From the NCBI RefSeq assembly GCF_036711975.1, contig NC_091972.1:6205001-6269000 (forward strand): DNA of 64,000 nucleotides, given 5' to 3'. The position numbers were made by a program, and so were the translations under genes. Under the pieces are notes generated by a model. It was not told the DNA's origin and searched no databases. It worked only from the letters and a program-made list of their open reading frames with translations. Below are positions 13,501-60,662 of the stretch, one piece after another. Numbering within the stretch: the stretch's first letter is position 1; each line of letters starts with the position of its first letter. This DNA comes from Onthophagus taurus. Lineage: Eukaryota; Arthropoda; Insecta; Coleoptera; Scarabaeidae.

Positions 13501-16500
13501 AGATAAACATCTCCATTCTCCCCATACTTGGGCGATAAAAACAATTTTTTTTGCTGTTTTGGTACCTCTCTTCTCGTAAATCCCCGAAGGAAAAGAATTA
13601 AATGGCGATTTTAAATCGTCCCTTGCGAAACATTTTAAAGACTCAACGGCGAAGATCTCCATCTCTCTTAAGTATCTTTAAGAGGAGGAGAAGTCCAAGC
13701 AAAATGTAGGTTAACCTCTGAATTAAGCACGGTCGTTTTTGGTGTAATCATCTGAAGTTTACGACTGCATTGAGGATATTTTAACCCAGCTTAACCGTCA
13801 AGTTACATCATCAACAACATCTCACAAACAAGTACTTAATCGAAATTTTATACAGAATGTTTTAAAAATAATTTTGAATATTATTTTTTGTTGGTGTAAT
13901 TACAGTACAACGTCGATGTAACGGATTAATATGGAGAAGGGAGTGTCCATTATATGAATAATTTCATAAATTCGGACAGCTATCCACATCGTTGCGTTCA
14001 GTGTACGTGGGCTTATATTTATACCAAGAATGGTAGAATCTAAGAGGACTGCTACATCCCGGGAACAGGTGGATAGACCGAAGGCCCGTTCGTGACGTCA
14101 ACGCTGAATAACAATTAAACACAATACCTAGAACTAGAATCATTCAGGTTTAGCCGAACGTCTCTCAAGAAGGCTAAACCCGAACGATTCTAGTTCTATG
14201 TATAGGTTAGTTCTAGTAACACTGTTAGTGTAAATCTAGTGACAGTACTAGTATAAAACTAGAACTATCACCAGACCTAGAACTAGAAACATTCTGGTTT
14301 AGCCGTCTTAAGAGAGCCTAACCCGAATGTTTCTAGTTCTAGGTCTAGTGATAGTTCTACTTTTAGTTTAATAAAAATATATAAAAATTTAGCGCTGTAA
14401 CCAGAAACCGAACCAGAAAGTTTCGGACTTAGGAGTGTGTCTTCAGACGCTATACAAATTTACATTTATATTTTTTAATGTAAAAAAAATTTCAAGGAGA
14501 TGAAGTAATTATAAATCCTTCATTTTCAAAAAATGTACGTTGTAATCAACAAGATGGAACATCCTGTATCTTTACGGAAATTCGATCGGCTAAAACAATG
14601 GGTTGGAGACCTTCGGATTCTTTTTCTTTCTTTTTTCTTTAATATTTCGTTAGCTCTAAAAATCTCGTTATTCACTTGAAATTCAAATAAAAGATTTCAA
14701 AGAGATAATAATCAGAGATCTACATGGAATTTGACGCAAGATGAAGAGAAACTATTCGAGGAGCTTCTTAATTACAACAAAAACAGCATAAAAAATGTTT
14801 ACAACGACGTGGGTTCTTTTTCTTTTTCCTTTTTCGTGTTGCAGTGCTCTAAATTACTAAGCGCTTATAAAGAGTGGTCGCTTCGATAAATGTTTTGCAA
14901 TGAATTTTTTTTTTCGTTTGCGAAACTCTTCTCGCAAAATGATCGTGCTTCTTGCAATTCGGTTTCTTATTATTCTTACGGATATTAAAGAAAATGTTGA
15001 AACCGAGTTTTAAAATGATTTCGTAAAAATAGGTTGCATTAAACAAGATTAAAAAATGTAGAGATGTCGATAATTGTTTTCAATTTTATTCTCATGGATT
15101 GTAATTTACATCATAAATACCATAAATACCGTAAGAATGGCATCACGACCTTTAATTTTTATTACAAGAAAAAATAAAGTTGCTATTATAACGGAGAATT
15201 GTAAATGTTATTTGTAATCTTCCTTAAAAAATTGTTTTAATAAAAACATATTTGATTTCGTTTATGTAATAAAGATTAATTACTACTATATAATTGAAAA
15301 ATTCTTGAAAATCTCTTAAGTGTTAAAGTTAAAAGTTTTGCGCAAAAACCCAACCCAACCTAGTTTTGATGTTTTAAAATCGACTACTAAATAGAGATTG
15401 GCATCCTGTCGTTAACCGTTTCCAGTTGTGTTTATCTTTTTTTCACTTCACCTGGATATTAGTCAACAGAGGAATGAAAATTAAAAGTTATAATTATTTT
15501 ATAACTCACTATGCATAAATGTCAATGCTAAATGGCTAAATGGAATTAAAAATCGTTTTGGAATGGTGACAAAAATAGGTCAAATCAATTCATTTATTGG
15601 TTAAAATTTATATTGATTGAGTTCAAAAATTGTGAAATTCACTTAAATTAATTTTCTGATTGCTTAACACATTAGTTAATATTTTATTTACATTTAATGA
15701 CACTGATTTAGCTTTGTATAATCTTTACTCCAAGAGGAAGATCCTGATTATCGGACTTGTTAATCATTACTTTTGTACAGTAGTATAATAAGATGAATGA
15801 ATATACAGTGTTTCCCAAAAGTAATGTAAAATAAATTCGCTGAGACGGGTCTAAAGATTTAAATTTTTTGCAATTTTTTGGTAACCATGGTAACCAATTG
15901 TTAGGAATATTTTATTAAAGACAAATTGATTGCCATATCTTGGAGAATTTTGTAGATAGTTGATGTTTCAAAATGTCGTTTTCATATATTCTGGGCGTTT
16001 AACATATTTAGTCAGTACGGACAAGACATTGCAGTAGAACTTTAGCGTTGCTCAAGAGTACCATTCCGGCTCCTTCAGTTTCATTTAAGCAACTTAGGCA
16101 GTATTCAATAATGTAGACTCCAATAACTCTCTTCCAGTTAATTTTCAATATCGTATCATCTTCCAGTACAGATTGTTGGTTTCGTGTGGCATCACGTCAT
16201 CAAGTTTCAAGGTGCGGTCGAAGTATTGAAATCGGCTGTTTTTCTTTTCCGGGCGGTATTCTCAATTTGGTTCTGGTATTAACGCTTTTGTATTTCCTAT
16301 CGGTGTTGGGTTCCGCGTCAATTCGGGGCATAATGTGTTTATGGCATCTCTTGCACAATTTTGAAGTTGTTAATCGTCGATACTTCTGAATTGAACTGCC
16401 CGAAATCATGTCTTTCTAGATTCTTCGAGTCCTTCCCCGATAGAGTGGGTTTCCTATTATGACGAGTCTTAGGCAAGCATGTAACTGTCCCTGTTTGCAA

Positions 16501-19500
16501 CCTGGAGCCGTCCCTGGCCTCAAATGTAGCTCCATCCTATCACAGTCAAATCTCAGTACAATGTCAAATGTGCTTCTGTCAATTTCGTTCTTTATTACCT
16601 GGATGTAGATGATAGCATTTGTATGATAGATGAGTGAATCTTTTTCGATTTTCGGCAGATTTTGACTAATTGACAATGATACAAATATATGCGCCAACAA
16701 GATTTGATAAAAAATTTGTTCTTAAATCTTTCAAAACACTCTGTACATTATAATTTTCTTTTTAATTAATTTACATAATTTCAATTGTATATAATTTTTC
16801 ATCAAAACGACATAAAATTAAAATATTGTTGCGATAGAACAACTTAAGCAATAAACGACCAATATCAACTAAATGACGACGGCTACGTCTCGTTGCAGAA
16901 ACGCACTCATAACCATTAAACCGTTATATTGTGACATAATATCATAACTGTATACCGATTTGAAATTATCCCGTTCGAAGGTCTGCTGATAGAAAACTAT
17001 TGCAACTCGCCGCATACCACCAAGCCACGCAGCGTTTTTAGCATTGAAGGCCAAAACTCAAAGTTACAATTCCAACCAACCACTTTTCCCCCAACCCTTT
17101 CATTGTTGTTGTAATAAGTTTGTTGTTAAATGGGCGCGTCCGGAATTGCGTTTGTAATTATTATTAAATCACGCCGACCGACGGTTTCTTTCGTTTCCTA
17201 TTTCATTATCATCGCCATCACGGTTGTTATTATCGATTGGCAATTAGCCCTGTCCCCGGCTTCTTCGATTTGACCTCTTCGACATTTGACATTACTACAC
17301 TGTGTTATGTAAGGAGAGAGAGGCGAAGTGCCGACCTGGATTGTAAAAAAAATGAAGCTAGATGAAAAAAAACCTCTATAAAAATTGTGTTTTGTGGTCG
17401 TCTGCGTAGAAATTAAAAAAAATTATTTGGAGAAACCTCTACTTAGAACTTCTTTGCATAAGTTTTATTTTTTTCAAAACTGAAGGTTATTATTGTGTAT
17501 TTTGTATAAATGGATTTGAAATAGATGTTAGAAAATAGAAAAAAAACTGGAAGAAAAATTGTTACTGTAAACATTACAAAATTGACCTAAGTTTATTTTT
17601 AACCAATTGTGCCGGATCGTTAATCTAGATTTATTGTCAATTTTTATTCTGATCAAGATGATTATGGAACCAGGATAATAAACGAAAAACCTTATACAGA
17701 GTTAATAGGTTGTCTGATGTATTTATTGTTGGTGATACGACCTACTCGAATGTAGCCGTAAACTACTTTAGCAGATTTCAAAGCAATGCGAAAGATACAC
17801 ATTGGAAAGGACTGAAAAGAATCCTTCGACACACTCAAGAATCGTTGAACGCTTATTTTATGGAAGAGATTCAATGAATGGGATTTTAACTTATACAGAT
17901 GCTAGTTGTACCACAAGTAGTTGGAATTTAATGAAAAATGTTACCAAGTTGAATATTATCAAATTGTATATAAGCAGAATTTTAAGAAATAGAGAATTAA
18001 TTAAATGTTTCGCTTTAAGACTTACTTTCTCTTTCATTAACATGTACTTACTAAATAAAATGTTAATGAAATAAAATAATTTCAGAGATACAGTTATCCA
18101 GAAATAAATCTCATAGCCAACATTAACACTTAATAATTACCTTCAACCACTAATGGCCCATAATAAAATTACTAGTACTTGACATTTAAAGATAGATAGA
18201 TACATACTTTTCTTTTTAACCCACTAAAATAAAACCAATCCATACTTACAACTTACAGCAACTTTACAGTTACCAATTACAACACCTATGAGTTAAAATT
18301 AATTACTTGGCGCAGTAAAAATTAATTAATTAGCACGTAAATGCAATGATCCCAACAAAAAATTCTCCCTTTTAAAAAGAACATTCCTTTCTAAACAAAC
18401 ATTTACGGAAATCTTGCAAAATTTAATTAAAATAATTTAAAATTAAGTAAACAATGAAGTTTTGATTTCATCCTCGTCTTCGAAAAGTAGAAACCGTAAA
18501 ATCTTTCATAACCCAATCAATACATACTAATTTTGTTACAAAGTAAAATTGAATAATAGAGAACGTCTTGTTTGTACTAAAATGATGTAAGATTTCGTGT
18601 CGGTTCTGCACTCTTAAACATAACCAGGTAATCGACGTGTTTCTCCCATAAGATGCAAAGTAAACAAGAATTTTTTGTTATTTGCAAGTTTCGTGTCGCG
18701 TTTGAAAACTTTCACCAAAACATGAAATAAAAATTATTTGTACTCACAAAATTGACAAAGTTTTAAATAGCGAGACATTATTAATTTTAAAATGAAAAAT
18801 TACATAAGATTATCGATGAAGTAAGCTATTAAAAAATCACTTAAAAAATTACGACTAAACAAAACGTAATGTACCGATAATAATTTTGTTATTAATAGAA
18901 ATATTATATCATAAGATGATATATGTCCACCCATTAAATAATACAGTAAAATGTATAACAGTAACAACTTATAACAAATTACATAACTCTTTAATCAGAT
19001 TTGAAACAAAAAAGAAACAATTCTTTCAAATGAATCAACTAGTTATCAAACACGACAATTATCGATTGGTAATTGTTAACTTAATTACCCCTTGTTATTA
19101 CAGTTTTATGCGTTTATGGCGAAACGTATAGATGGAAAAGATAACCGTCCTATTAGAAATATAAATACAAATTTTTTAAGACTTTGAGGATATCTTGTGT
19201 TTCACTTTTACCATTTAGAACGTACCGTACGCGTTCCTGTCTCAATTGTTGTTTATTGTTACGATTATGTAACACTTTACCATTATTTATTAGTAAATCT
19301 GATTCCAGTGACAATAAAATTATCAATAAGATTTTTTCCTTGAAAATCCAATTAAATAATTAAGTGTAAAAAATATATCACGAACATTTGTATTCAAAAA
19401 ATCAAAGAATCCATTGGAAATAGTTTTTAAAGAATGCTCCATTCCGCTTAATTGGTCCGCTGTTTAATAGAGCATTCGCTTAATAGGGACAAAATATGGA

Positions 19501-22500: not shown

Positions 22501-23938
22501 CGGTCGTTTTGTATAATCGGTGTCGTTTTATACCTTTTTAATCATTCAACCGACTATTAATTAAATTATTAATTCCGAATTTTTAATAATTTTTTATAGA
22601 CTTTTAAAAGAACAAGAAGAAATAAAAGTAAAGATGACTCTATTAAAAGCTCGTCAATATTGTTATTGCTATTAAAAGTGAGGAAAATGCGACTAAAATA
22701 AAATAACTTTTAAATTAGTAAATAAAATAAATCAATTATAAATGTAAATAAACTTAATCTCGGTTAGTCTAGTAAAAACACTAAAATTCAGTACTTAATA
22801 GTTATTAATAGTAATATAATATTTATGTGCTAAGGTCATGAAATTGTATCATAGGGCTACATTTACTCAAAGCCGAGGTGCTACAATCAACACCGTCAAA
22901 GATAGCAATGAGATTATTGTACCTTTACAACTAAAAATTGACGTAAATTTTTTGTATGGCCTAAATCTATCATTGATAATACTACATATATGCTAAGACT
23001 ATGACATTTTGTCTTTGGGGCGAAATACCTTGTAGCCGAGGCGCTACAATCGATATTATAAATGAAAGACTTAGGTTGGACTTTGATAAGCAACTATATT
23101 TAATCAGTGTTACTTGACATTTAACACGATATGCCCCCTAACATCGGAAACCACGCAAACACGATCGATTTTCCCGTTGTTAAGCAGACGTAGTTTCGAG
23201 TCTCATACTTTTTGACAAAGATGTTAATATCTTTGCGTATGAGATCTGGACCTACAATGATGACTGGCAACACTACGATTTGTTCAGGACGTCCCAATAC
23301 GAAATACTGCTCATTGATCAATGCTACAAAAGTTGTGCAGCATAAGGAAGAGTAACTATTTGCTAGATAAACCTGAATGTTTCTAGTGCTAGGTCTAGTG
23401 TTAGTTCTAGTTTTGCCTTAGCATTATTATTAGAACTAACACTAGACCTAGAACTAGAAACATTCAATATAATATATTGAAACTGCTTATACAGTACAGA
23501 GTTCCACAACGATCAGTCCTTGGGCCTATTTCATTTTTATTCATTAATGACCTATTGACACAAAACAATATCAACAATAAAATTGTTGTGTTTTCTGACT
23601 TTAGTAATGAATGATATAAAATGAGGAATACAAATGTTTTGCCGAAATCGTCTTAACATTAAGACTACAAACTTTAAATGATACTAAATAAATAGGCTAA
23701 TTAAATAATTCGGAATCCACTTTGATACTAAATTGTCATGGAAAGAATATGTTTTTATTTCGTTAGAAGATTAGATAGATTACCTAACAGTAATTGATGC
23801 CTTTACGAATGAAAGTTTTTTTATAAAACCTTTTATAATTATTAATTATCTAAATTTACTTACATCATAAGCACACGCAGTTAAGATCCACGTCACGATC
23901 AGCACCAAAACATGTCCAAATAGCGACGACGTTGCCAT
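1583..23938 (-). CDS. ADAMTS-family secreted metalloprotease, N-terminal part (signal peptide and propeptide), continues off the left edge
   Basis: Four minus-strand exons join in frame at good splice sites: 23864-23938 (25 codons from ATG), 9648-9711, 8884-9197 and 1583-1678. The first encodes a hydrophobic signal peptide (core HVLVLIVTWILTACA). The rest reads as an M12B/ADAMTS prodomain: a MTIEELKSTFHV stretch, PEYEVI, a possible furin-type RNKR site, a low-complexity Ser/Lys/Asp region, the diagnostic LKLRAFGKDVHLNL motif, and a DEDNQAAILL segment near the end. The metalloprotease (HEXXH), disintegrin and thrombospondin repeats would lie beyond position 1 and are not seen. ADAMTS enzymes are secreted and cleave extracellular matrix proteoglycans and collagens; which insect member this is (AdamTS-A, -B or stall type) cannot be decided. 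Introns of about 14 kb and 7.2 kb make this the largest unit in the window. Exon joins are inferred by eye. Confidence 0.75.
1679..8883 (-). other. Intron of the ADAMTS-like gene (about 7.2 kb)
   Basis: No coding exon is recognised here. The sequence is AT-rich, with patches of higher GC and mixed sequence, notably about 6350-6560 and 7000-7300, that could be regulatory because they stand out from the background. Short open frames on both strands look like chance. About 3300-4150 has a repeat-like texture but I could not tie it to an element family. Confidence 0.4.
9198..9647 (-). other. Short intron of the ADAMTS-like gene
   Basis: This intron lies between the exons 8884-9197 and 9648-9711. 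It begins with GTAAG and ends with a pyrimidine-rich tract and TAG, read on the minus strand. AT-rich; nothing else seen. Confidence 0.6.
9712..11345 (-). other. Intron of the ADAMTS-like gene, left part
   Basis: No gene or recognisable element. A patch at about 9880-10050 has more GC and CpG than its surroundings and might be a regulatory element; this is a composition judgement only. Confidence 0.35.
11346..11525. repeat. Imperfect inverted repeat
   Basis: A 13-bp perfect arm, CGATTTCATTGAT at 11356-11368, is repeated inverted at 11508-11520. An imperfect extension runs inward (GATATCGAT..ATAGTATTG against its near-complement before 11508). The GC-richer interior contains further partly complementary stretches. 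It lies directly beside the transposase remnant and may be part of the same or another insertion. Confidence 0.5.
11565..12120 (-). pseudogene. Degenerate IS630/Tc1-mariner superfamily transposase
   Basis: Read on the minus strand with frame changes, this is a decayed DDE transposase. In order it shows DFCKKIIWSDEAHFHLNGYV, a cysteine/histidine QNCHIWVSEN stretch, then DMWFQHDGSTCHTAHET containing the catalytic-region aspartate, then LTPLDF followed by a damaged LWGYLK-type motif, and finally a C-terminal helix region with NPATIPELKENIRRA and a QQSHGGHLVDIIF end. This is the pattern of the mariner-like transposases found in many copies in insect genomes. At least three frameshifts or stops (for example just after the VSENLHAI stretch and in the LTPLDF region) make it non-functional. 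It sits in an intron of the ADAMTS-like gene, on the same strand. The N-terminal DNA-binding part is not recognised, and terminal repeats were not found. Confidence 0.85.
12181..14124. other. Intronic stretch with no firmly supported gene
   Basis: AT-rich DNA in the large ADAMTS-like intron. A plus-strand open frame at 13072-13344 is listed separately as doubtful. The stretch at about 13905-14060 begins with CAGTACAACGTCGATGTAAC, a style of end seen in pogo/Tigger-type elements, but no partner end was found. Confidence 0.35.
13072..13344 (+). CDS. Doubtful small open reading frame, 90 codons
   Basis: It starts MEEIPRLERKKSTHTRTTW and has a mixed, protein-like amino-acid composition for the first 60 or so residues before becoming Phe/Asn-rich. 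I do not recognise any family, signal peptide or domain. It lies antisense inside an intron of the ADAMTS-like gene. It could be a nested single-exon gene, an exon of something larger, or chance. The last third looks like background AT-rich sequence, so if it is real the coding part may end earlier. Confidence 0.2.
   Translation: MEEIPRLERKKSTHTRTTWLNWLYNPRAITRLHYQQQDFMADSKFIDEIKSISWHQKDYLHSSFSHFNFNFFKVFNSYFLNKNFTLNNDV
14125..14370. repeat. Foldback repeat family, locus A (two hairpins)
   Basis: Two consecutive palindromic units are built from the words CTAGAACTAGAA, CATTCGGGTTTAGCC and TTCTAGTTCTAGG. The first arm pair is at about 14128-14155 and 14172-14200, the second at about 14275-14304 and 14316-14343. 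The loop carries a TCTCTCAAGA-type core. The same words occur at four other loci in the window (about 23.4, 36.2, 50.3 and 60.5 kb). Confidence 0.85.
14371..16011. other. Intronic stretch, no gene seen
   Basis: AT-rich. From about 15808 the words ACAGTGTTTCCCAAAAGTAA resemble the outer end of a dispersed repeat, but the other end was not located. Confidence 0.35.
16012..16700 (-). pseudogene. Unidentified coding-like remnant in several minus-strand frames
   Basis: GC-richer DNA in which minus-strand frames stay open in succession. About 16416-16700 includes FDCDRMELHLRPGTAPGC. About 16200-16409 includes a CKRCHKHIMPRI knuckle (CX2C). A frame without an ATG from about 16196 to 16012 reads QQSVLEDDTILKINWKRV and ends CLSCLNETEGAGMVLLSNAK and a little more. 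The pieces are in different frames, so if they belong together the gene is broken. I do not recognise the family. It could be a retrotransposed or transposon-derived remnant. Plus-strand frames over the same DNA look like shadows. Confidence 0.3.
16701..17690. other. Intronic stretch with a GC-richer block
   Basis: No gene seen. About 17010-17340 has higher GC with CpG-containing words and no coherent reading frame, which fits a non-coding regulatory element better than an exon. This rests on composition alone. Confidence 0.3.
17695..17930 (+). pseudogene. Ty1/copia retrotransposon fragment (end of RT / start of RNase H region)
   Basis: Plus-strand frames read LIGCLMYLLLVIRPTR, then after a one-base frame change AVNYFSRFQSNAKDTHWKGL followed by KRILRHTQESL and, after a stop, ILTYTDASC. 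This is the copia Pol signature usually seen as GCLLYL..TRPD..AVN..SRF..P...HW...KRILRYLKGT, then the TDADW of RNase H. Frameshift and stop show it is dead. Only about 240 bp are left; no LTRs are recognised nearby. It sits antisense in an intron of the ADAMTS-like gene. Confidence 0.85.
17931..23370. other. Intronic stretch, about 5.4 kb, no gene recognised
   Basis: Mostly AT-rich background. About 19440-19495 contains CGCTTAATTGGTCCGC and CGCTTAATAGGGAC, sub-repeats like those in the ends of Tigger/pogo elements. The following kilobase (about 19600-20620) has higher complexity but no readable transposase. About 22870-23060 contains a near-repeat, GCCGAGGTGCTACAATC and GCCGAGGCGCTACAATC, about 165 bases apart. 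Confidence 0.35.
23375..23465. repeat. Foldback repeat family, locus B: near-perfect 35-bp hairpin
   Basis: Arms at 23375-23409 and 23431-23465 are complementary over 35 bp with a single mismatch (position 14 of the left arm), around a 21-base loop. The arm begins GAATGTTTCTAGTGCTAGGT and contains CTAGTGTTAGTTCTA, the same words as the other foldback loci. This is the simplest copy, one hairpin only. Confidence 0.92.
23490..23800 (+). pseudogene. Jockey/CR1-like LINE reverse transcriptase remnant
   Basis: The plus strand reads YRVPQRSVLGPISFLFINDL followed by a short spacer and VVFSDFSNE. This is the non-LTR RT block normally written VPQGS.LGP.LF..YINDL...FADD; the catalytic FADD has decayed to FSDF. 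A stop follows, and further along FGIHFDTKLSWKE matches the FLGI..D..L.W region that follows the catalytic domain in these elements. It ends next to the signal-peptide exon of the ADAMTS-like gene, on the opposite strand. Confidence 0.85.
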
Positions 23939-34600: not shown

Positions 34601-36154
34601 AAGAATAAAATAAAAAATAAGTTGACAGGTGGTGCAATAATCAACTAATGTACAGTGACTCACAAAAGTATTTATACCCTCCTATACAATACAAAGAAAT
34701 TGTGTAAGCCCAAATCTCAAGCCTCATCGGTGATTACTTAAATGTTCTTAAATTCTATCTTCAAGTAGGCAATCCATTGGTGTTTGAGCAACGTTATGCC
34801 ATCACTATAAAATTCAAATTTAGCTTGAGGTTGTTTTTTTTTCTGATTGAGGGTCAAAAATTATATAAAAAAAAAGACAAACGTCAAACCTTAAGAAAAT
34901 AAATTCTCCTATGAAAAAGATTATTTTCGTATTTAGATTTTCAGTTATTTTCCGTTAAATAACAACAAGATTTAAAGAATAGTGAAGAAAAAAATTAATT
35001 TATTATTTATTTCTTTTTTGTTAAAGGCAATTTAAACGAAAATTGAAAAGCAGCATGTGTCCAAGGTATTAAATTCACTGAACCCTGAACCACCATCAGT
35101 GTTAATAAGTCACCTCTGGCAAATTGTCGCCAACAAAAACCATTAAAAAGATGTTCTGTGTGAGTTTGAGCTTTTTTGTAGTTTGGGACTTTTTTTAGAA
35201 GAAAACCGGTCGACCAGGTGGACAAAGCTTTTTAATCTTTTTAAAGATATATTCTTGTCGCAAAATGAAACAATATACATAAATAAAAAAAAGAAAATCA
35301 TTAAAAGGAGACAATTTTTTTTTGTTGAAATAATTAATTGCAACTTCTTGGCCAATCTTTGGACTTTAAGTTTTTTTTTATTTATAAATCGTAAAACACT
35401 ATCGCTGTCTGCCGGAATGTCTGGTTGATTCGAGATATTTACGTAATAGTGACTCGAAAAATCATCTATCATAATAAATTTCAATTATCGACTATTAGAT
35501 TTTTTTTCTTTTTTTATAAAGCCAGGTGGTTTGTCCGTTTCGATTTAATGTGGCGAACAAAACAGATCGTTAGTAAACTGCTAATAAAAATCTATAATAA
35601 GACTAGTTTTTATAACAAAATCTTAATGATATACTTAATTTCCTTTTTTTGATTCCAAACTATCTACTAATTAAGACTTTAAATACTTATAAACAATTAA
35701 AATAAAAACTTAAAGAACAAAAAAAGAAATAAAAAATATCTATATACATTTTTTTAGATGTTTAAATCTTTTTTTAGATAAAGATATTTTCTTAGAAAAA
35801 TATATTATAAGTATTAACATATTTATTGTGTTTTTCCACGAATTCACATATAATCGCCTTTTTTTTTCGAGTTTTAGTTAATTTGTCATGCTGAATTTTA
35901 ATTGATCTATTAGACTACAAGTAAAGGTAGGCTTTCAAACAAAAAAATAATAAAATTATCAAAATTTATGATTACGATGTTGTGCTAATTGCCCTGACCT
36001 TTTTATAACTCTTAAAATTCTAATATTTTCCACAAACTTCTTAATTATTTTTTAAATTTAACACATTACTCTCTATTTAAACAACAATTTTAATAATGAT
36101 AATTCGATTTTTTGAGGTTAAATTCTTTTTAAATCATATTTGATAAAAATGGGC
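31683..36154. other. Gene-poor AT-rich stretch
   Basis: No supported gene. About 33115-33250 is GC-richer without a clean frame. At 34266-34338 (minus) there is a possible transcription start with a tiny first coding exon, described under findings. At about 34652 CAGTGACTCACAAAAGTAT looks like one end of a Tc1/mariner-type element; no second end was found. The remaining short frames look like chance. Confidence 0.35.
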
Positions 36155-36440
36155 ATGTTTCTAGGTCTAGTGTTAGTTCTAGTTTTACACTGCCACTATC
36201 ACTAGAACTAACACAAGACCTAGAACTAGAATCATTCGGGTTTAGCCATCTTGAGAGAGGTGCGGCTAAATCCGAATGTTTCTAGTTCTAGCTCTAGTGT
36301 TAGTTCTAGTTTTACACTATCACTAGAACCAACACAAGACCTAGAACTAGAATCATTCGGATTTAGCCGTCTTGAGAGACGTGTGGCTAAACCCGAATGT
36401 TGCTAGGGTTGCTAGTTCTTGTTTGAGCGTCTCTTAAGAC
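36155..36440. repeat. Foldback repeat family, locus C (several hairpins)
   Basis: Successive palindromic units run from ATGTTTCTAGGTCTAGTG near 36155 to the GCGTCTCTTAAGACGGCC near 36424-36441. The words CTAGAACTAGAATCATTCGG, TTTAGCC and GTTTCTAGTTCTAG are shared with the other loci. The unit TCTTGAGAGACGTG forms the loop between the CGGATTTAGCC and GGCTAAACCCG arms. Confidence 0.85.
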
Positions 36441-36633
36441 GGCCGATAACTCAGGGTTATCATAAAGATGTTACCTTTTTCCAAGCAAAACTCCTTCTTT
36501 GCAAAACTACCCAATGCCTGTACTATTAAGCTAAAAATGTTGCATTTTATATGGGACAGTGCAAGTGCATAGTAGTTACATAACTATGGTTACTGCATTC
36601 ATATATTGCGAATTATATGAAATTCCCTGTACA
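36441..36633. repeat. Conserved non-palindromic arm next to foldback locus C
   Basis: From about TTTTTCCAAGCAAAACT to GAAATTCCCTGTACA this stretch matches 50709-50863, beside locus D, in the same order and orientation. Shared words include TGCAAAACTACCCAATG, CTGTACTATTAAGCTA, ATGTTGCATTTTAT, GGGACAGT and CATTCATATATTGCGA. The similarity stops abruptly at AAATTCCC(T/G)GTA in both, so this looks like the end of a defined repeat element. Confidence 0.85.
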
Positions 36634-39929: not shown

Positions 39930-41747
39930 ATGACAAAAATAACGTATCAAGAGTTTTTAAACGATCACCGCCCTCAACTTGTACATTCTGCGATACCGGA
40001 AATTTACTGGGAAACGATTTATACGAAATTAATCGAACAAACTTTTGATGCTGGAAATATTTTTTCTCTAATGCAAATTGAGTATGATGTTCAGCGAAAT
40101 CCTGAGGATCCTACTTGGGCGTTACAAATAAACGTTGAAGAAGGTATACAAGCTGATGATAAGCAACATGTATATCTTGTTGATCATGCTTGGACTTTTC
40201 GTATGGAGGATGCTTTGAAACAATTAGAAGTTGACGATTCTTTGAAACAACGCATGGCTTCTATTGTGGGATGTGATCCAGAGGAGGAAAGGAACGTTTT
40301 GACGCAGAAAATTTTTAATGAAATGTGGAAATATTGTTGTTTTTATTGCATAGGAAGTGCCACACAAATTGAGGATCGATTGGCAGTTTGGTTTATTATG
40401 GATGAAGTAGGCTCTGCTATTCATCATAGTGATGATCCTAATTTTCGAGTGGTTCCATTCATTTATATTCCAGAACAATTAGGTGTATGTTTGATTTATC
40501 CTTTAAAAAATTTAAAATGTGAAGAAGTTATTACAAGAGATTTCTTGGAAGGTGTTACCGATTCTTTAACCAGATCAGCTTTATCATTACCTTGGAAAAA
40601 ATCGTCTTTAACAAAGCATAGTTTTGATTTTGTTCCACAAGATGAAAAATATTTTACATCTGGTCATATATTGGAGACTTTACCAATAAAAGAAAACTTT
40701 AAAAGTCGCCCAGAAAAGAAAGAGAAATATAAAGTGTATTGCGAATATGATGTTATTAAGAAAGCTTTAAATGATCCAAGATTTGAGTTTGTTATTAATG
40801 AAGAAGATGCTGATATTCTTTGGTACACAAAACATTTTAAATATTACGAACAATTAAGTGAAACACCTGAAGTATTTGTAAATCAATTTCCTTTTGAGTA
40901 TATAATAACGATAAAAGATTTATTAGCAATAACATGTCGCCGAAAAAATAAAAAGAACTTTAATGGATTAGAAAGCTTACCAGTTTGGCTACCTACAACT
41001 TACAATTTACAAACTGAAATTGTTCAATTTGTATCTTATTATCAAAAAAGACAAGAAAAAGGGCTTAATAATCTCTGGATTATTAAACCTTTCAATTTAG
41101 CAAGGGGCTTAGACATGCATATTACAGATAATTTGAATTACATCATGAGATCAGCTACAACAAGAGTAAAAATAGCACAAAAATACATTGAAAATCCCGT
41201 TTTATTTGATCGAGATGACGTTGGAAAAGTAAAATTTGATATTCGTTATGTAATTTTATTAAAATCAGTTAAACCCTTAGATGTTGCTGTTTATAAAGAA
41301 TTCTTTTTACGATTTGCTAATAAAGAATTCGAGTTGAATTCATTCGATGATTATGAGAAACATTATACTGTTATGAATTATACTGAAACTGCAACATTAA
41401 AACACATGCTTTGTTCGGAATTTAAAGGCCATTGGAAAGAGCAATATCCTAATAATCCATGGGAAATTGTAGAAGAATCTATTTTTAGTATGTTGAAAGA
41501 AGCTTTTGAATGTGCGGTTATGCTGGATCCGCCTTGTGGAATATGTGACAGTCCCCAATCTCGAGCTGTTTATGCAGCAGATTTAATGTTAACTTGGAAT
41601 GGGGAAGATATGCAACCTAAATTATTGGAAATAAATTGGACTCCGGATTGTCAAAGAGCATGTGATTACTATAAACATTTTTATGATGATATTTTTAAGT
41701 TTTTATTTTTAAATGAAATTAATATTGATACTATAAAACCGTTATAA
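39930..41747 (+). CDS. TTLL12: Tubulin--tyrosine ligase-like protein 12
   Basis: A single uninterrupted frame of 605 codons, close to the usual TTLL12 length of about 640. The N-terminal half carries the TTLL12-specific SET-like region, with motifs DHAWTFR, ALKQLEVDDSLKQRMA, CDPEEERNVL, WYFMDEVGSAIHH-like (here VWFIMDEVGSAIHHSDDPNF) and VCLIYPLKNL. The C-terminal half is a TTL ATP-grasp domain, with NNLWIIKPFNLARGLDMHI (about residues 380-398), KFDIRYVILLKS, CGICDSPQSRAVYAADLML (about 535-555) and PKLLEINWTPDCQRACDYY near the end. TTLL12 is a cytoplasmic/nuclear pseudo-ligase-like protein linked to tubulin detyrosination and histone H4K20 methylation in the literature; no ligase activity is firmly established for the family. 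The intronless coding region is a lineage trait or a retrocopy; because it has the full length, no decay, and a divergent partner NAA40, I take it as the working gene. Confidence 0.95.
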   Translation: MTKITYQEFLNDHRPQLVHSAIPEIYWETIYTKLIEQTFDAGNIFSLMQIEYDVQRNPEDPTWALQINVEEGIQADDKQHVYLVDHAWTFRMEDALKQLEVDDSLKQRMASIVGCDPEEERNVLTQKIFNEMWKYCCFYCIGSATQIEDRLAVWFIMDEVGSAIHHSDDPNFRVVPFIYIPEQLGVCLIYPLKNLKCEEVITRDFLEGVTDSLTRSALSLPWKKSSLTKHSFDFVPQDEKYFTSGHILETLPIKENFKSRPEKKEKYKVYCEYDVIKKALNDPRFEFVINEEDADILWYTKHFKYYEQLSETPEVFVNQFPFEYIITIKDLLAITCRRKNKKNFNGLESLPVWLPTTYNLQTEIVQFVSYYQKRQEKGLNNLWIIKPFNLARGLDMHITDNLNYIMRSATTRVKIAQKYIENPVLFDRDDVGKVKFDIRYVILLKSVKPLDVAVYKEFFLRFANKEFELNSFDDYEKHYTVMNYTETATLKHMLCSEFKGHWKEQYPNNPWEIVEESIFSMLKEAFECAVMLDPPCGICDSPQSRAVYAADLMLTWNGEDMQPKLLEINWTPDCQRACDYYKHFYDDIFKFLFLNEINIDTIKPL

Positions 41748-43329: not shown

Positions 43330-44745
43330 TCACATATGTTTAGATATTAAATCATTTTTTAACATAACAAACACCTGACCTAAATCTTCATAAGGATAAT
43401 TTCGTTTCAATAGAGGATCATACAATTTTATTCCACCCAATGTCCTTAATCCAGGAATTAAGGGTACAACCTTTAATTGGATATCAAGGGTTGAATGTGC
43501 AGAAATTGATTTTAATGTTTTCCCTGATACTCCACTCCAAGTGATACCTTCACGATCTTCCAATGCTAAAATTAGTTCCACATTCCTTTCCCTGTAACAT
43601 TTAAAATTAATATTATCTGATTACAAAAAAAGGAAGACTTACGAATTATTCAAAATTCTACATTTAAAAGCAAAAGGATTTTCTAAAATAACAAAATTAG
43701 GTAACTGAACTACAGATAATCTTATATCTTGATAATCTGGTCCCATCCTTTGCAATTGACTTGTTTGTAATCTTCCTTTTTCTCCTAAATTACTCCTCCA
43801 AATAATATCTAACTTTCCGATATTAGTAGCTCCACTCAACAATTTTAAATCATTAAATAATTTAGGATCTGGAGTCAAACAATACAAAAATTGACATATT
43901 GATTGGGGCTGCAACAATGTTGTTCTTCCAAAAACGCTTTTACCACTTGGTGTCATATTTAAGCATGTAACATTAAATAAATGTGAAGCATCCAATGAGA
44001 CTCTCTCTAAACAAATTGGACCGGAAGTTATATTTTGTACTTGAGCCTCTAAATAAACATCATCATTTTCAGCGTTATAAAATTTTGTTTTGACATCTAA
44101 GGGTTTTAAAACCATTATTTTAAAGAATTTTCTAAAAGACATTGAAACTCCACTGGGTGCTTGATAAGATACCTCACAAACCAATCTAAAAAAGTCAATT
44201 TAGTAACACTTTTATCAAATTAAATCCATACATATGGGCTCCAATTTCTTTAACTTCATGATGTATAACAACATTAACTGTATCATCGGGATTTAAAGCT
44301 GCAGTAGCTGGATTTGATGATAAAGCCAATCGTTGTGACGATGTTTGTAAATCCACCTTAAATTTATTAAATTATTCTTTGATATTATAGTTAATTAAAC
44401 TTACTTTAACCGCAACATTATTAACTATTTGCTCCGTTTCACTATAAACACAAATGTAGCTTGAAAATGTTTCACCTAGATAAATGTTAACTGGATTTTG
44501 GGGCAATAATAGAAACTGGCCTATTGCTAAAGTTTCTGTGCCTGGAACTGTTGTGGAATCTTTTTGTAAGGCTTCATTAAGTAAGTTTCCTGGTAAATCT
44601 TTTGTATCAGAGGTTACAGGTAAAGGACTTGCTAAGGTAGGTCTTGTTAACCTCATAACTAGAAAGGAAATTATAAAGATTAAAACGGATTAAAAAAAGG
44701 TTTTTTTATACCTTTAAGGGCTACAAAATGCTCTTCTGGTTCCAT
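43330..44745 (-). CDS. TRAPPC13: Trafficking protein particle complex subunit 13
   Basis: Five exons join cleanly to 405 codons: 44712-44745, 44405-44658, 44232-44356, 43643-44185 and 43330-43591. The protein begins [11 protein letters not shown], then [60 protein letters not shown], a [20 protein letters not shown] block, [40 protein letters not shown], and near the end [11 protein letters not shown]. These match the known family in order and length (the human protein is about 417 residues). TRAPPC13 is a beta-sandwich subunit of the metazoan TRAPPII/III tethering complexes that act on Rab GTPases in ER-Golgi and autophagy traffic. All introns are short. The start codon is supported because the first exon gives the conserved EHF.ALK start and splices in phase. 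It is transcribed toward TTLL12 (convergent). Confidence 0.95.
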
Positions 44746-49000: not shown

Positions 49001-51004
49001 TGAGGTGGTGTGAGAGAATATCTCGTTAGGTGACGATACCGCTTACTCGTTGCCAATGACGAGTTACCGCCGCCCCAACCTCTACGCCACATATGTCCCA
49101 TACCTAACATTAGTAGTTTGGGAGATTATTAGGGTTTTTTGAAAAATACAGACATACAGGGTGGTTCAGTTTTTAATTGGGAAACTTTACTAGGATGTAG
49201 TACTTACAAAAATAACACAAGTCTTTTCTACTGGTTAAGAACTTATTTTCAAGCATACCTTAAACTTCTTTAGCGCCCTCTAAGGGGATGAAATTCACCA
49301 CCCGCTTGATTTTTTTTATGAGAACTTTTTAACGCTATGGAATGTTAACATAAAAAAATATGGGTTGTAAAGCTCATTTTTTAGTGGTACTTTTAGGTCT
49401 CTTTAGTATTTTCCTTAAAGTTAATAGTTTCCGTGTAAAAAAATAAAATATCGTGCCATGTATCGCTATGTGCCGCCATGTTGAGCTAAAATTATTCTAA
49501 AAGTTGGCTCTGAGAACTTGTAAGTTTCATTTACGGTGAATCCTCATAATTGTTGATGATTATTAATAATTTTTGACTGTTATTAATCAAGAGTATCAAT
49601 TTTTGATACTCTTGATTAATGAGACTGACCTCAGATTCTCGTTATTTACATACTTGTGTCTCAAATTTTCTGTCTTACGTAAATGTCTTTCGATATTTAG
49701 GAATGTTTTTTGTATCAGGTTGTCTTTACTTACAATTTGTTTCCATAGGCACCTACGATTAATGAAAACATTCCAAAATCGAGGTTGTATCTTTTTGTAA
49801 ATATCTCAAAAATGATGCGTTTAATCAAAAATTTCTAAGAGTGAAAATAATTTTTAAATGAAATAGGCTTTTAGAATCAGTTGGAAAATTTAAGGGTTTA
49901 TGACATAATAAAACAGTTTTAATGAAATAACCTTTGTGAACATCCTGTATAGCATTGATCCCGTCGTTCGATATTTCCAACAGTGATCTTAAACGATGTC
50001 TTATGATAACATTCCACTGTTTGCCAAACTTAGTATTTCTAAGATAAATCATATTGAAAATATTTAAGAAAATGTTTGAAAATTTCTTAACTTTGAAGGC
50101 CCATATCTTAGCCATTTATGGTTTTAGATCAAAAATTTTTACACGAATCGTCATCATTTTCACTCTACTATTTGTAATCAAAATGCCACGACTTACAGAA
50201 ACATCCCGTATTTTTATTAAACGAAAAGTAGAACTAACCCTAGAACCAGAACCATTCGGGTATAGCTATGCATCTCTTAAGACCTCTGAACCTGAATGTT
50301 TCTCGTTCTAGTTCGTGAAGTGTTAATTCTAGTGACAGTGCTAGGTAGCGCTAGTTAGCATTAGATATCACTGTGTCTAAAGACGCACGGCTAAACCCGA
50401 AACTTTTTACTTCTAGGTCTACTGTTAGTTCTAGTTTTGCGCTAGCACTATCACTAGAACTAATACAAGACCTAGAACTAGAATCATTCGGGTTTAGCCA
50501 TCTTGAGAGACGTGCGACGAAATCCGAATATTTCTAGATTAGGGCTAGTGTTAGTTGTAGTATTGCACTATTACTAGAACTAACACAAGACCTAGAACTA
50601 GAATCATTCTGGTTTAGCCGTCTTGAGAGACATGCGACTAAATCCGAATGTTTCTAGATCTAGATCTAGTGTTAGTTCTAGTTTTGTAGTAGAACTATTA
50701 TACAACCATTCGGGATATTTTCCAAGCAAAACTTTTCCTTTGCAAAACTACCCAATGTCTGTACTATTAAGCTATGTTGCATTTTATGTGGGACAGTAGT
50801 TTCGTAAATATGGTTACTTCATTCATATATTGCGAGTTATATAAAATTCCCGGTATATCAGATTAGTTTGTATTTCTACTTATAACATTTTATTAATAAT
50901 TATTTTTTTTATAGGAAGCTGCAGCTGAAAAATGGTATTCAGAATTCAATAAAATGTGTGACGAGGTTGATAAATTCCCATTGGAAATCGAAAAAGTCAA
51001 ATAG
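46027..51004 (+). CDS. dmt: Dalmatian/sororin-like sister-chromatid cohesion protector
   Basis: Two exons, 46027-48381 and 50915-51004, give 814 codons. The joined C-terminus reads EAAAEKWYSEFNKMCDEVDK then FPLEIEK, which matches the sororin C-terminal signature (W, a helix ending in an acidic EXXXF, then hydrophobic-IE). An FGF motif (FFGFNVSEI, residues 661-663 FGF) fits the Pds5/Wapl-binding motif of sororins, and a KEN box (579-581, RSLENKENK) fits APC/C-Cdh1-controlled turnover. The rest is long, Lys/Asn/Ser-rich and disordered, as in insect dalmatian, which combines sororin and shugoshin roles. A repeated module starting CQVVLDKDKSIE (from residue 77) and CQVILKRDKSIE (from 131), and a SPWRFNVEVRRNPHFLQYKR block (478-497), are visible. 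Sororin protects acetylated cohesin from Wapl until mitosis. The long exon's open frame past 48381 is intron read-through. Confidence 0.78.
48900..49130 (-). mobile_element. Probable 3' end of a non-LTR retrotransposon or similar repeat
   Basis: A GC-rich block quite unlike its surroundings. On the minus strand it is open over 67 codons, ending TPPQDPKGECTRGPLGPKC and a few more residues, with several Gly-rich stretches. The word ACTGGGGCCTAAGTGC (minus strand, near 48965) recurs almost exactly at about 36708 on the plus strand, showing that it belongs to a dispersed family. Which family it is remains uncertain. Confidence 0.45.
49582..49620. repeat. Perfect hairpin, 18-bp arms, 3-base loop
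   Basis: ATTAATCAAGAGTATCAA at 49582-49599 is followed by TTT and then its exact inverse complement TTGATACTCTTGATTAAT at 49603-49620. It lies in the dalmatian-like intron, so it would form a stable stem in the pre-mRNA. It may be an internal part of the neighbouring repeat. Confidence 0.95.
50225..50863. repeat. Foldback repeat family, locus D, with the conserved arm
   Basis: From about 50225 to 50700 at least three palindromic units made of GAACTAGAATCATTCGGGT, TTTAGCCGTCTTGAGAGAC and ATGTTTCTAG words occur. From about 50709 to 50863 comes the non-palindromic arm shared with locus C, ending AAATTCCCGGTA. An additional word, GGTAGCGCTAGTTAGCATTA at 50344-50363, is shared with locus E near 60374. 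The element ends about 50 bases before the last dalmatian-like exon. Confidence 0.88.
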
Positions 51005-54700: not shown

Positions 54701-55162
54701 TCACATCTTCAGGTTATCTTAAAAATCTTTTTTTTCTTTTACACGTTTTTATCTTACCTGATATCGAAAGTTTTTATAACTTTAATAAGTACAATTCTAA
54801 ATATTTTAAACTTTTTCATTTATACTTTTTAAGTTATAAATTTATAATTATATACGTTCACCGAAGCTTTAATAATAAATTTAATGTCTTTGATTAGTAT
54901 CGCCATCAGGGGAGAAGATTAAAGAGGAACTAGAGCGGAAATTTCTCTTTTTACATCCGTTCTCGATTCGGTTTTCAACTTTAAACCTTCAATTTCAACT
55001 TGTACTTCAATTGCAATGATTGATTTTCTTTATTTGCCCTTGAATTCAAAACCATCAATTCGATTAATTCAATTAAGTTCGATTTAAGTTATATCCTATT
55101 CTGACTTCTGGATAGGGGTTTTCTATTATCGATAGCTTTAACTTAAAACGTAATTTATTACA
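51756..55162. other. Intergenic stretch, no gene recognised
   Basis: Some GC-richer patches (51720-51900, 52185-52310, 54180-54420) lack coherent frames and could be regulatory or untranslated exons. A 22-bp perfect palindrome lies at 53875-53896. The many short frames here have no recognisable content. Confidence 0.4.
53875..53896. repeat. Perfect 22-bp palindrome
   Basis: TGAAAGTGTGC followed by its inverse complement GCACACTTTCA, with no spacer. A partial echo, GCGAAAGCGTGCG, follows about 30 bases later. It could be a dimeric transcription-factor site or a recombination-prone cruciform; nothing in the surroundings decides this. Confidence 0.9.
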
Positions 55163-55688: not shown

Positions 55689-55735
55689 TATCCAATCCAC
55701 GGCCATATTTTGTTTACCAAGTTGTAAAACTACGA

Positions 55736-56760
55736 ATTCATCTAATTTTCATATTTTCGTATTTATCTCGATATTTTTGCATCTGAGAGCAAAACTGAAA
55801 GAGAGCAATATTATTCAGAACAAAATTTGCTACAACTTTTGTTCTAAAAGTTTTTTTGTAGTATGCTTCAAATCCAAAGTGTTACTATCAACAGTACATA
55901 AAACTACACATTCATCTAATTTTCCTATTTTCGTATTTATCTCGATATTTTTGCATCTGAGAGCAAAACTGAAAGAGAGCAATATTATTCAGAACAAAAT
56001 TTGCTACAACTTTTGTTCTAAACGTATTTTCGTAGTATGCTCCAAATCCAAAGTGTTACTATCAACACCATGTAAAACTACACATTCATCTAATTTTCAT
56101 ATTTTCGTATTTATCTCGATATTAATGCATCTGCGAGCAAAAGTGAAAGAGAGTAATATTGTTAAGAATTAAATGTGCTACAAATGTCGTTCTTAAAGTT
56201 TTTTTGTAATATGCTTCAAATCGCGAACATTACCTACCATGAACAAGTAGTAAACACGCATTCATCTAATTTTCATATTCTCGTATTTTTCTCGAAAGTT
56301 TTGCATCTAAGAGCAAAAGTGAAAGAGAGCAATATTGTTCAGAACAAAATTTGCTGCAACTTTTGTTCTAAAAGCTTTTTTGTAGTATGGTCCAAATCCG
56401 TAGTGTTACTATCAAGAGCATGTAACATTACGAATTCAACTAATTTTCATATTTTTGCATTTTTCTCGATATTTATGCATCTGCGAGCAAAAGTGAAAGA
56501 GAGCAATATTGTTAAGAATTAAATGTGCTACAAATGTCATTCTTAAAGTTTTTTTGTAATATGCTTCAAATCGCGAGCATTACCTACCATGAACAAGTAG
56601 TAAACTACGCATTCATCTAATTTTCATATTTTCGTATTTATCTCGATATTTTTTCATCTGAGAGCAAACCTGAAAGAGAGCAATATTGTCCAGAACAAAA
56701 TTTGCTACAACTTTTGTTCTAAAAGTTTTTTTGTAGTATGCTTCGAATCCAGAGTATTTT
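55736..56760 (+). repeat. Tandem satellite: six units of about 174-177 bp, two alternating types
   Basis: The word ATTCATCTAAT (or a one-base variant) begins units at 55736, 55910, 56084, 56260, 56434 and 56611, giving periods of 174, 174, 176, 174 and 177. Each unit holds TATCTCGATATT, GCATCTGAGAGCAAAA and GAAAGAGAGCAATATTG words. Units 1, 2, 4 and 6 continue CAGAACAAAATTTGCTAC. Units 3 and 5 continue GTTAAGAATTAAATGTGC and end ATTACCTACCATGAACAAG. The order is therefore A A B A B A, a dimeric higher-order pattern. Because 174 is divisible by three, long open frames cross the array; they are not genes. Confidence 0.95.
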
Positions 56761-58073: not shown

Positions 58074-58113
58074 TTAGCAGTAACAATAATGCGGTTTTAA
58101 AAAATGGTAAATT

Positions 58114-59448
58114 TTAAGCTGGTATTTGTCTTGGTCTCCCAAAACCTTTAGACCCATCCGGTCCTTTTGGTAATCGTACCAAATTATCATTATGAAAAGC
58201 TGTGCTATTACTTCTCGATCTACCACAGCTGCTATCTGATGTTTGGCTACACGAAGACATTCTACGGTTATAACTGCTACTTCCACTACTTTCAAAACCT
58301 GATAAAGTACTTGCCGAGCTTAACCTTCTTGGTGTATACAAACTAGAATCGCTTGAATCTCTACTACCATAAGATAAACGTCTCGGCATAAACAAAAAAT
58401 TTGCTTCGGCTGTTGTCGCTGAAAATCTTCTTTGTAACCAAGCTGCTGGTTCGATATTTCTCGATGGAAAATGTGATGAATTGCCTCTACGTAATTTTAA
58501 TCGTGGATCTAAAATTTTATCTTCTTCGTTAATTTTTTCAATTGATGATTTTTTATTATTTATGGTTTTCTTGTTGTTTTTCTTTTTACGTTCTGGATGT
58601 GGAACACCGTTAAGTTCGTAAACTTTAAGTTCTTCGTGATTTTCTTGTAATTTAATAGCGTTTCTCGCCGATTCCGAAACAACAAATTCGACTAAAGCGC
58701 ATACTAATCCAGCTAAAGACGGATTTTTATTAATAAATTGCCGAACATCTGCAGGTATTGGATTTCCAGGTCTTAAAATTCTTATTAAAGAAATTTCTCC
58801 GCATTCTTTAAATAATTCGGCGACATTTTCAATTGTAGGTTTTTCAATAGGCATATTAACAGCAACTATGGTTCTTGAAGGTGTTGTTTCATCATATTGT
58901 GGTAACGGATCAATTCTCCTTAATTTTGTTCCAGGTTCGTTGATTTCTAATTTTTTTGATCTTGCTAAAGCGTGAGCGACAACTCTCCAATCTTTAGTGA
59001 TATGCTTAACTCTTTTAAAACTTGAAATTAATTTTAATGAAACGTACCCTTCTTTATTCCTTTTAACGTGTTTTAATAAAAACGCATCTTTGCTGATGTT
59101 TGCGTCGGAGAAATAAAATTCGACTTGTTGTACGATCTTATCGGCGAGTTCATCAGATGGTGGTTGGAAAGGAGGTTCTTCAACTACTTCCGGAGTGACC
59201 TCACAACCTGAATCTTTCCCTCCTCCTTGCGATCCGGTATCCGAAGCAGAATCAGAAAGATCTCCCATATGTGCACCTTCATCTTCAGCTTCATTTTGAG
59301 AATTTTTACGCGGTTTATCAAATGATAAAGAAATGTTTGAATCAATTGAGGAAATACTATCTCGGGTTTCCAAAATTTTTGATGGGATATCTTCGTTTTC
59401 TTCGATTATCGTTTCCGTTGTGGTAACTGTATCCTCAATTACGGGCAT
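58114..59448 (-). CDS. LARP6: La-related protein 6 (LARP6/achilles)
   Basis: A single 444-codon exon. After an acidic, Ser/Thr-rich N-terminal region comes the La motif, about residues 94-183: PSDELADKIVQQVEFYFSDA, then ISKDAFLLKHVKRNKEGYVS, and KRVKHITKDW. An RRM-like domain follows at about 192-283, with RTIVAVNMP and LIRILRPGNPIP, and its ALVEFVVSE near 251. A Lys/Asn-rich basic stretch and repeated RRLS-type serine clusters (356-404) lie before the C-terminal LVRLPKGPDGSKGFGRPRQ, the SUZ-C (LSA) motif that ends LARP6 proteins. LARP6 binds stem-loops in mRNAs (collagen in vertebrates) and promotes their translation or localisation; the insect protein is called achilles in Drosophila. The length is typical of the family. 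The ATG at 59448 is the first after an in-frame AT-rich leader, and a good promoter lies 220 bases upstream. Confidence 0.95.
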   Translation of the reverse strand: MPVIEDTVTTTETIIEENEDIPSKILETRDSISSIDSNISLSFDKPRKNSQNEAEDEGAHMGDLSDSASDTGSQGGGKDSGCEVTPEVVEEPPFQPPSDELADKIVQQVEFYFSDANISKDAFLLKHVKRNKEGYVSLKLISSFKRVKHITKDWRVVAHALARSKKLEINEPGTKLRRIDPLPQYDETTPSRTIVAVNMPIEKPTIENVAELFKECGEISLIRILRPGNPIPADVRQFINKNPSLAGLVCALVEFVVSESARNAIKLQENHEELKVYELNGVPHPERKKKNNKKTINNKKSSIEKINEEDKILDPRLKLRRGNSSHFPSRNIEPAAWLQRRFSATTAEANFLFMPRRLSYGSRDSSDSSLYTPRRLSSASTLSGFESSGSSSYNRRMSSCSQTSDSSCGRSRSNSTAFHNDNLVRLPKGPDGSKGFGRPRQIPA

Positions 59449-59664
59449 TTTGACGTCTTCGTTTTCTTTCTTTCTTAATAATTAAACTCTTAAACTTAAG
59501 TATCACAAGATAATATCACTTGTAGTTCTTTTTAACAATTAATTTTTTTTTAAGGAATCAAAAAAGTGTTGATTTGTCGACGGGAAAGCCACGTGTCTTA
59601 GTTACACCCGTAGCTTTAAAAAAATAAAGCTACACCGGCGAATTGGTGACCTACCTTCTGCTGC

Positions 59665-59701
59665 GACTGAATAAGTCGTCGAGAACTCCACGGCTTTTAT
59701 A
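59665..59701 (-). promoter_or_regulatory. Core promoter of LARP6: TATA box plus initiator
   Basis: On the minus strand TATAAAAG starts at 59701, and a perfect TCAGTC initiator has its A (+1) at 59668, 33 bases on. Transcription would begin about 220 bases upstream of the LARP6 ATG. A GTAGGT word about 15 bases past the start could be a donor for a short 5'UTR intron. The spacing is the same as at the promoter near 30.8 kb. Confidence 0.75.
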
Positions 59702-60424
59702 AGTTTTATTCGACTCCCACCAAGTTTGTTGGCGCATTTGAGCGTGGGGATCTCACGACTACAGTGTCACGGTCGTAACAATGACCTACCACAACGTCGG
59801 TTACTTCGTTGAATACGTTGTCACCTCCAAATGAAATTGTGACGACTTCTTTTTGCGTTTTTTTGATGTGTTTATATTTTAAATTTTAAATCTACCCTTG
59901 GAATTTATTTTTAAATCAAGGTTTTGATATTAACCTCTTTTTGGGTGCACTTATTATGGTGTTAATTTTGGTATTATTGATTTAGTTCACGTATTGTATC
60001 TAGATTTTTCTCTTTTCCGAAGCGCATGGAAAGAAGAAGAAAGTTTCAAGAAAGCTTCTTGAAGGCGTGCGAGAAATAATTGCACTTTTAATTAGCTTAT
60101 TATGCTTGGATTGATTCATTAATGTTAAATAGGTGTATTAAAATTTTATTAGTTAAGGTAATTTTAATTAAATGCAAATATAGATATTACCATCACACTA
60201 ATTCTTTGAAGATTCTTCATGGTTTAAAGAAATGATTGTTTTTGTAGTTGATTTCTGGATATAACAAAAAATATTGTCTCATAATTAGATACCTATCTTA
60301 AAGTTACTTTAAAACACTATCAATATAGTGAATTTCACTTAAGATGCAATAAACAAAAATATATTTCAGTGGTAGGTAGTGCTACTTAACATAAGATATC
60401 ACTATGTAGTATATTTGTATTGAA
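59702..60424. other. Upstream flank of LARP6
   Basis: The first 130 bases are GC-richer and may hold proximal control sites of LARP6. Beyond that the stretch is AT-rich with no gene. The part from about 60370 shares GGTAGTGCTACTTAACAT with the foldback locus D region, so the locus E repeat probably starts there. Confidence 0.4.
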
Positions 60425-60662
60425 TTAAAACTAGAACTAACAGTAGTAGTCTAGTTCTGCGCTAGCACTAGAACTAATACAAGACCTAGAACTGGAATCA
60501 TTCGTGTTTAGCCGTCTTGAAAGACGTGCTGCTAAATCTGAATGTTTCTAGATCTAGGTCTTATATTAGTTTTTGTGACAGTGCTAGTGCAAAACTAGAA
60601 GTAACACTAGACCGAGATCTAGAAACATTCGGATTTAGCCGCACGTCTCTCAAGACGGCTAT
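60425..60662. repeat. Foldback repeat family, locus E
   Basis: Palindromic units of AAACTAGAACTAACAGTAG, CTAGAACTGGAATCATTCG, GTTTAGCCGTCTTGAAAGAC and CTAGAAACATTCGGATTTAG words occur, ending in a CTCAAGACGGCT. The conserved right arm of loci C and D is absent, so this copy is incomplete or is a different subtype. Confidence 0.85.

Follow-up and report, generated by a model that had tools for sequence, protein, structure and literature searches.

The question raised by this stretch of DNA is what kind of element has left the same palindromic words at five separate loci (at about 14.1, 23.4, 36.2, 50.3, and 60.5 kb) within 64,000 nucleotides of Onthophagus taurus sequence (C7:6205001-6269000 of a 290.8-Mb eukaryotic genome; hereafter the window, meaning the whole stretch analysed). 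The original prediction, made from the sequence alone, described these loci as a dispersed foldback repeat family, possibly of miniature inverted-repeat transposable elements (MITEs). The foldback/MITE-like character holds, and the hairpins form the centre of a larger element: their array lies between two end modules, inverted relative to each other, with TA at the outer flanks. We regard the family as very probably a non-autonomous, MITE-like DNA transposon of the Tc1/mariner type (TA), with inverted ends and a central hairpin array.

The sharing of words among the five loci was borne out by a pattern search of the window, in which the words CTAGAACTAGAA, ATTCGGGTTTAGCC, and TCTTGAGAGACG were counted and compared with 100 shuffles per word, a fourth word (TTCTAGTTCTAGG) being left out. 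CTAGAACTAGAA gave 21 matches against 0.31 expected (at most one mismatch), ATTCGGGTTTAGCC gave 14 against 0.27 (at most two mismatches), and TCTTGAGAGACG gave 8 against 0.14 (at most one mismatch), counts that 0 of 100 shuffles reached for any of the three. Every match of these words lies inside one of the five named loci or at most 12 bp from it. Tandem Repeats Finder reported, in the window, a 121-bp period in two copies at 36159-36406 and a 120-bp period in two copies at 50445-50686. One piece per locus was also folded as single-stranded DNA and compared with 200 shuffles; the z-scores were -12.9 (14.1 kb), -13.3 (23.4 kb), -12.6 (36.2 kb), -4.9 (50.3 kb), and -7.1 (60.5 kb; piece 60475-60600), and 0 of 200 shuffles folded as well at any locus.

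The family extends far beyond the window. A genome-wide copy count, proposed as a check on the original prediction, placed a 24-base half-unit at 9,748 sites (5,075 + 4,673; at most one mismatch, 290.8-Mb genome), and its reversed control at 0. A 321-bp query from 36.1 kb, scored on the best 40 of 3,601 first-look candidates, gave 406 matches in clusters of up to several kb. The family is thus dispersed, as had been proposed, over hundreds of genomic places, and since these copies exist it is not a local duplication. An apparent chromosome-scale strand bias of the half-unit among the matches listed was dismissed as an artefact of that list, from which an exact minus-strand match at L019 (C1:4.89 Mb) is missing. 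Exact 26- and 27-base unit words had 0 matches when searched against viral contigs and genome contigs.

The alignment of flanks, likewise suggested at the outset for finding common ends and target duplications, yielded common ends and TA flanks. At 36.4 and 50.7 kb, the arrays share on their right side a module of ~190 bp, which we call T3 (best 40 of 1,133 candidates scored), and the element runs on rightward there for ~140-190 bp past the hairpins; the extent first given to the element stands for the hairpins and falls short at these two loci. Palindromic units lie no more than ~50 bp from T3 in all 20 loci that it fetched, one of which is a window copy. The left sides of these loci revealed a second module, T5, and in each of the 30 loci fetched with T5 palindromic units stand at most ~120 bp away, mostly beyond an internal module that we call I5 (in this set, L049 is the same place as L031, and the units of L059 are only a 46-bp scrap). 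T5 starts with CAGTGAATTTCACTTAAGATGCAATATA and T3 ends with GCGAGTTATATGAAATTCCCGG (short form ...TTGCGAGTTATATGAAATTCCCGG). Their 30-mers occur at 307 (T5) and 252 (T3) sites in the genome with at most one mismatch, and the reversed controls at 0. An alignment of T5 with inverted T3 gives a match of 62-69% over ~90-118 bp, strongest across the outermost ~28 bp and an inner block of ~22 bp (GTCCCACATAAAATGCAACAT); terminal inverted repeats are thus present, and imperfect. The ends were missed in the original prediction because all five window copies are truncated.

The flanks of the ends were examined for those above the score cut-off in L009-L028 and L030-L078. Of 41 left ends, 35 have TA in front, and of 34 right ends, 30 have TA behind; both sides carry it in 15 of the 21 two-ended copies. 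The two flanks of a two-ended copy agree over four bases in 6/21 cases and over five or more in 0/21. The bases beside the TA favour ATA|element|TAT (A in 34/41, T in 28/34); a palindromic AT-rich target is typical of Tc1/mariner elements. Two-ended copies are 467-2,764 bp long; T5 and the array of the longest (L014) are separated by ~1.2 kb of other sequence, and short copies of ~600 bp also occur (L055, L036, L078). Direct repeats resembling an inverted repeat/direct repeat (IR/DR) arrangement were seen inside T5, where 12 of 5000 shuffles were as good, and inside T3, where 662 of 5000 were; as the motif was picked after looking, the IR/DR-like repeats are only suggestive. A full copy reads, in order, TA, T5 (CAGTGAATTTCACTTAAGATGCAATATA...), I5, a series of mostly head-to-tail units of 121/127 bp, T3 (...TTGCGAGTTATATGAAATTCCCGG), and TA. 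I5, between T5 and the array, starts with CAGTAAAACCTCGATATAACGGATC and is preceded by TA; a 29-base word from it occurs at 148 sites (at most one mismatch), and among the matches listed many of the one-mismatch sites share the same C-to-T change. Many copies have the later half of I5 a second time, in inverted orientation, before T3. I5 has what we take to be a resemblance to a Tigger/pogo end, and reads as a putative captured or nested MITE end.

Two further observations concern the placement of the ends. Exact T5/T3 ends are scarce in the middle third of two contigs, C1 (1/26, against 11/21 for DDE_1) and C7 (1/47, against 11/34), a comparison that covers these two contigs, takes DDE_1 from among the matches listed, and counts T5 and T3 of one copy twice. 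At C5:2772005-2773448, three exact T3 ends lie on the same strand at steps of 710 and 704 bp, which suggests a tandem duplication of the whole element.

Array periods are mostly 121 bp, 127 bp, or a multiple of either, with up to ~27 copies (L024, L027; Tandem Repeats Finder). When the majority sequence of the unit is folded, two hairpins form, the large one with ~35 pairs and the small one with ~14. Direction was read in 19 long-array loci having at least four full units (L009-L028 minus L022, chosen as best unit matches): the units run one way in 13/19 and in both directions in 6/19 (L010, L017, L018, L021, L026, L028). The original prediction held that copy number varies from locus to locus in a way suggestive of internal expansion, and unit divergence is in keeping with this, at 7.8% within loci versus 11.3% between them, a difference beyond 500/500 label shuffles (333 full units, with L049 dropped as a duplicate). 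The nearest relative lies in the same locus for 185 of these 333 units, and units are more alike inside than outside at 18 of the 20 loci with at least seven units. The shorter end-bearing copies are mixed, those more alike inside being L040, L061, L030, and L064. A T5 or T3 match survives in the fetched flanks of six long arrays out of 20 (L010, L012, L014, L018, L019, L027), and none was found in the fetched flanks of the other 14; in this count a 29-bp scrap at L017 was left out, and the array of L013 reaches the end of its stretch, with its right border beyond it. These end-less long arrays look as if they were becoming satellite DNA. Common long-array borders other than T5, T3, and I5 were also considered and rejected: pairwise flank matches exist but look like other repeats, and the comparison of array flanks found no module besides T5, I5, the units, and T3 common to at least four other loci.

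We infer that the element would move as a whole, in trans, into TA sites in AT-rich ATAT contexts, with both its ends bound by a transposase from another source that most likely belongs to the Tc1/mariner (IS630) superfamily. The internal array would grow and shrink locally through unequal exchange or replication slippage, probably aided by hairpin formation, and the longest arrays would lose their ends and come to behave as dispersed satellite-like DNA. Maintenance of hairpin pairing by compensating changes was examined over 49 pairs in 334 units and rejected: double changes are compensated in 45 cases and uncompensated in 46, and single changes number 1,481, compared with a mean of 23 compensated (max 41) and 1,584 single changes in global shuffles, and a mean of 37 compensated (max 46) and 1,529 single changes in within-locus shuffles. 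The compensated changes therefore show no excess over the level given by relatedness. Single changes are somewhat fewer than in the shuffles.

Several points weigh against a Tc1/mariner-type MITE. Its two end modules are unusually unlike each other for MITE ends, and TA is missing on one or both sides in 6/21 two-ended copies. The four-base agreement (TATA) in some flanks makes a slightly longer target duplication formally possible, and is explained by a preference for TATA targets. The copies were chosen by similarity, so the sample favours well-preserved ones; the flank comparison found no empty site of the element; and no autonomous partner was seen among the few transposase copies inspected. 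In addition, local growth is not seen in every copy, the units of the end-bearing L034, L039, L065, and L067 being no more alike inside than outside.

These points must be set beside those bearing on other explanations. The hairpins might be a satellite DNA that disperses alone (e.g. as circular DNA), with T5 and T3 merely its frequent neighbours; the 14 long arrays with no end module in the fetched flanks and no other module in common, and the fact that long-array units are mostly more alike inside than outside, fit this. We nevertheless consider it improbable, given that palindromic units lie close by in 50 of 50 loci for which an end module was the sole query, that the two ends are mutually inverted and TA-flanked, and that two-ended copies of ~600 bp exist. 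Somewhat less doubtful, though still unlikely, is that the double-hairpin monomer drives its own amplification, for example by hairpin-primed replication or through circular DNA, with arrays growing and jumping independently of T5/T3 and the MITE being only one carrier. The long arrays without ends in the fetched flanks and the solo hairpin at 23.4 kb fit such a monomer, and arm pairing gives it no clear support, the compensated changes falling within the within-array range.

Two known kinds of transposon share features with the family. Helitron ends take the form TC...CTRR and produce no target duplication, and the DINE and CgHINE elements presumably have ends of this type, whereas inverted-repeat ends with TA on both sides are found here. 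Central tandem repeats are nonetheless typical of DINE and CgHINE in the parts of a review consulted (PMC9659126), where these Helitron/Helentron elements likewise spread satellite-like central repeats; a Helitron/DINE-like element is the reading to which we give the least credence. Only slightly more plausible, and very unlikely in itself, is a classical foldback element (FB/Mutator or Galileo-like) with long inverted repeats made of hairpin units. The units are palindromic and able to fold back, I5 pieces stand inverted near T3 in many copies, and six of the 19 listed long arrays contain units in both directions. Yet the other 13 run one way rather than in two inverted halves, and the flanks are TA, with no two-ended copy sharing five or more flanking bases, as opposed to the duplications of 8-10 bp given for Tetris in the consulted part of its description (PMC4079207).

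The Tc1/mariner-type MITE that we favour would need a transposase, and transposase candidates adjoining an end or an array (L079, L081-L084) were fetched for inspection. Matches were scored for the best 150 of 1,708 candidates with PF13358 (DDE_3) and the best 150 of 1,691 with PF03184 (DDE_1), and PF01359 gave 34 matches, 30 of them with internal stops. In agreement with the original prediction, no accompanying transposase belonging to the element was seen; those inspected look like separate nested elements, are other-ended, or lie outside. L079 was rejected as a partner: a DDE_3 element with its own inverted ends of ~306 bp sits inside a T5-T3 copy, and it is taken as nested because the same element occurs in L080 without a T5/T3 match. 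L081 and L082 were rejected as well. Their DDE_3 element has ends TACCTTTTACAG and a frame of 363 aa; the L081 copy splits a palindromic unit at a TA and is nested, since its flanks rejoin (by eye) as an uninterrupted unit. L083 holds Tigger-type remnants within a T5-T3 copy, with a relative, L085, that has other ends and no T5/T3 match; the remnants read as nested, although no right-hand Tigger end could be made out by eye. At L084, an array copy, the DDE_1 match lies beyond T3. The element shows no coding capacity of its own: the coding pieces in L079 and L083 look nested, and one in L074 looks, by eye, like a fragment of a long interspersed nuclear element (LINE). The DDE_3 transposon of L081 (240-2080) and L082 (145-2005) has, by eye, long inverted ends made from ~42-bp subrepeats, themselves open reading frames; among the matches listed, 17 tie in score, and in 15 of these 17 a frame of 363 aa is open.

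The kind of element described here is already known. Among the satellite-carrying MITEs in the sections of two reviews consulted (PMC9659126, PMC12628747), the closest in outline is miDNA4 of Xenopus tropicalis, a Tc1/mariner MITE that bears a satellite (Scalvenzi and Pollet, as cited there). As excerpted, it too is a non-autonomous Tc1/mariner-type MITE whose monomer is single or in a variable array, and whose long arrays later lose the inverted ends; it differs, in a comparison by description only, in its unrelated host, and the family described here has a 121/127-bp double hairpin as its monomer. The Xstir/Xmix MITE of Xenopus, compared from description in the same excerpts and also from an unrelated host, carries tandem repeats on a MITE and occurs as MITE, array, and composite (PMC9659126, PMC12628747). 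Tetris of Drosophila virilis is, from the portion of its description consulted, non-autonomous and modular, with many rearranged forms, no transposase found, and internal tandem repeats of ~220 bp that have grown into satellite-like arrays of kb size; in contrast to the TA flanks and central array here, it has target duplications of 8-10 bp (Mutator was suggested) and repeats inside its terminal inverted repeats (PMC4079207). A text search of 5.39 million open papers for the family's words and end sequences returned none, which says little, as sequences are mostly in figures and supplements. We thus found no earlier record of the hairpin-array family, which may sit in Repbase, Dfam, or supplements.

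The family offers a well-sampled, single-genome example of a small transposon seemingly turning into dispersed satellite-like DNA, in which ~600-bp two-ended copies coexist with few-hairpin copies, end-bearing arrays of kilobase size, and long arrays that have no recognisable end. In annotation of this genome its copies should be masked together under one transposon family and not treated as hairpins or satellites with no relation to each other, and its strong hairpins are likely hot spots for assembly problems, recombination, and small RNAs.

Against this background, the five window loci read as decayed copies. T3 survives in two of them, a T5 remnant in a third, and an I5 piece in a fourth, and the fifth is a solo hairpin. 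The array at 36147..36427 (+) consists of two 121-bp palindromic units and lacks a left end module; its T3 occupies 36440..36629 (+; left border set by the query), terminates in AAATTCCCTG, and is followed by TA at 36630-36631. Similarly without a left end module, the array at 50208..50706 (+) has several palindromic units with a 120-bp period, and is followed by T3 at 50718..50853 (+), terminating in AAATTCCCGG, and by TA at 50854-50855. The 60.5-kb copy comprises a T5 remnant at 60327..60369 (+; AGTGAATTTCACTTAAGATGCAATA; match 60327-60441, 72%) and a palindromic array at 60442..60665 without a right end module. At 14111..14456, a palindromic array of about two hairpins has an I5 piece on its right and neither T5 nor T3. 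To the left of it, an I5-like stretch (CAGTACAACGTCGATGTAACGGATTAATA) at 13903..13954 (+) matches I5 positions 1-55 at 74%, and may be a separate Tigger/pogo-like MITE. The locus at 23361..23466 is a solo palindromic unit, a single 106-bp hairpin rather than an array, and has no end modules.

A search of the window with Rfam gave 0 matches. To the right of the solo hairpin, an open stretch at 23484-23600 looks, by eye, like a reverse transcriptase motif of LINEs (RVPQRSVLGPISFLFINDLL). At 55720-56755 lies a different tandem repeat, whose 174-bp unit is present in ~6 copies with a 350-bp double period, and look-alike sequence adjoins, by eye, the hairpin arrays in L030 and L033. Amid these repeats are host genes at 39930-41747, 43639-44184, and 58114-59448, which encode a tubulin-tyrosine ligase family protein with a SET-like domain, a TRAPPC13 middle domain, and a La-domain protein.

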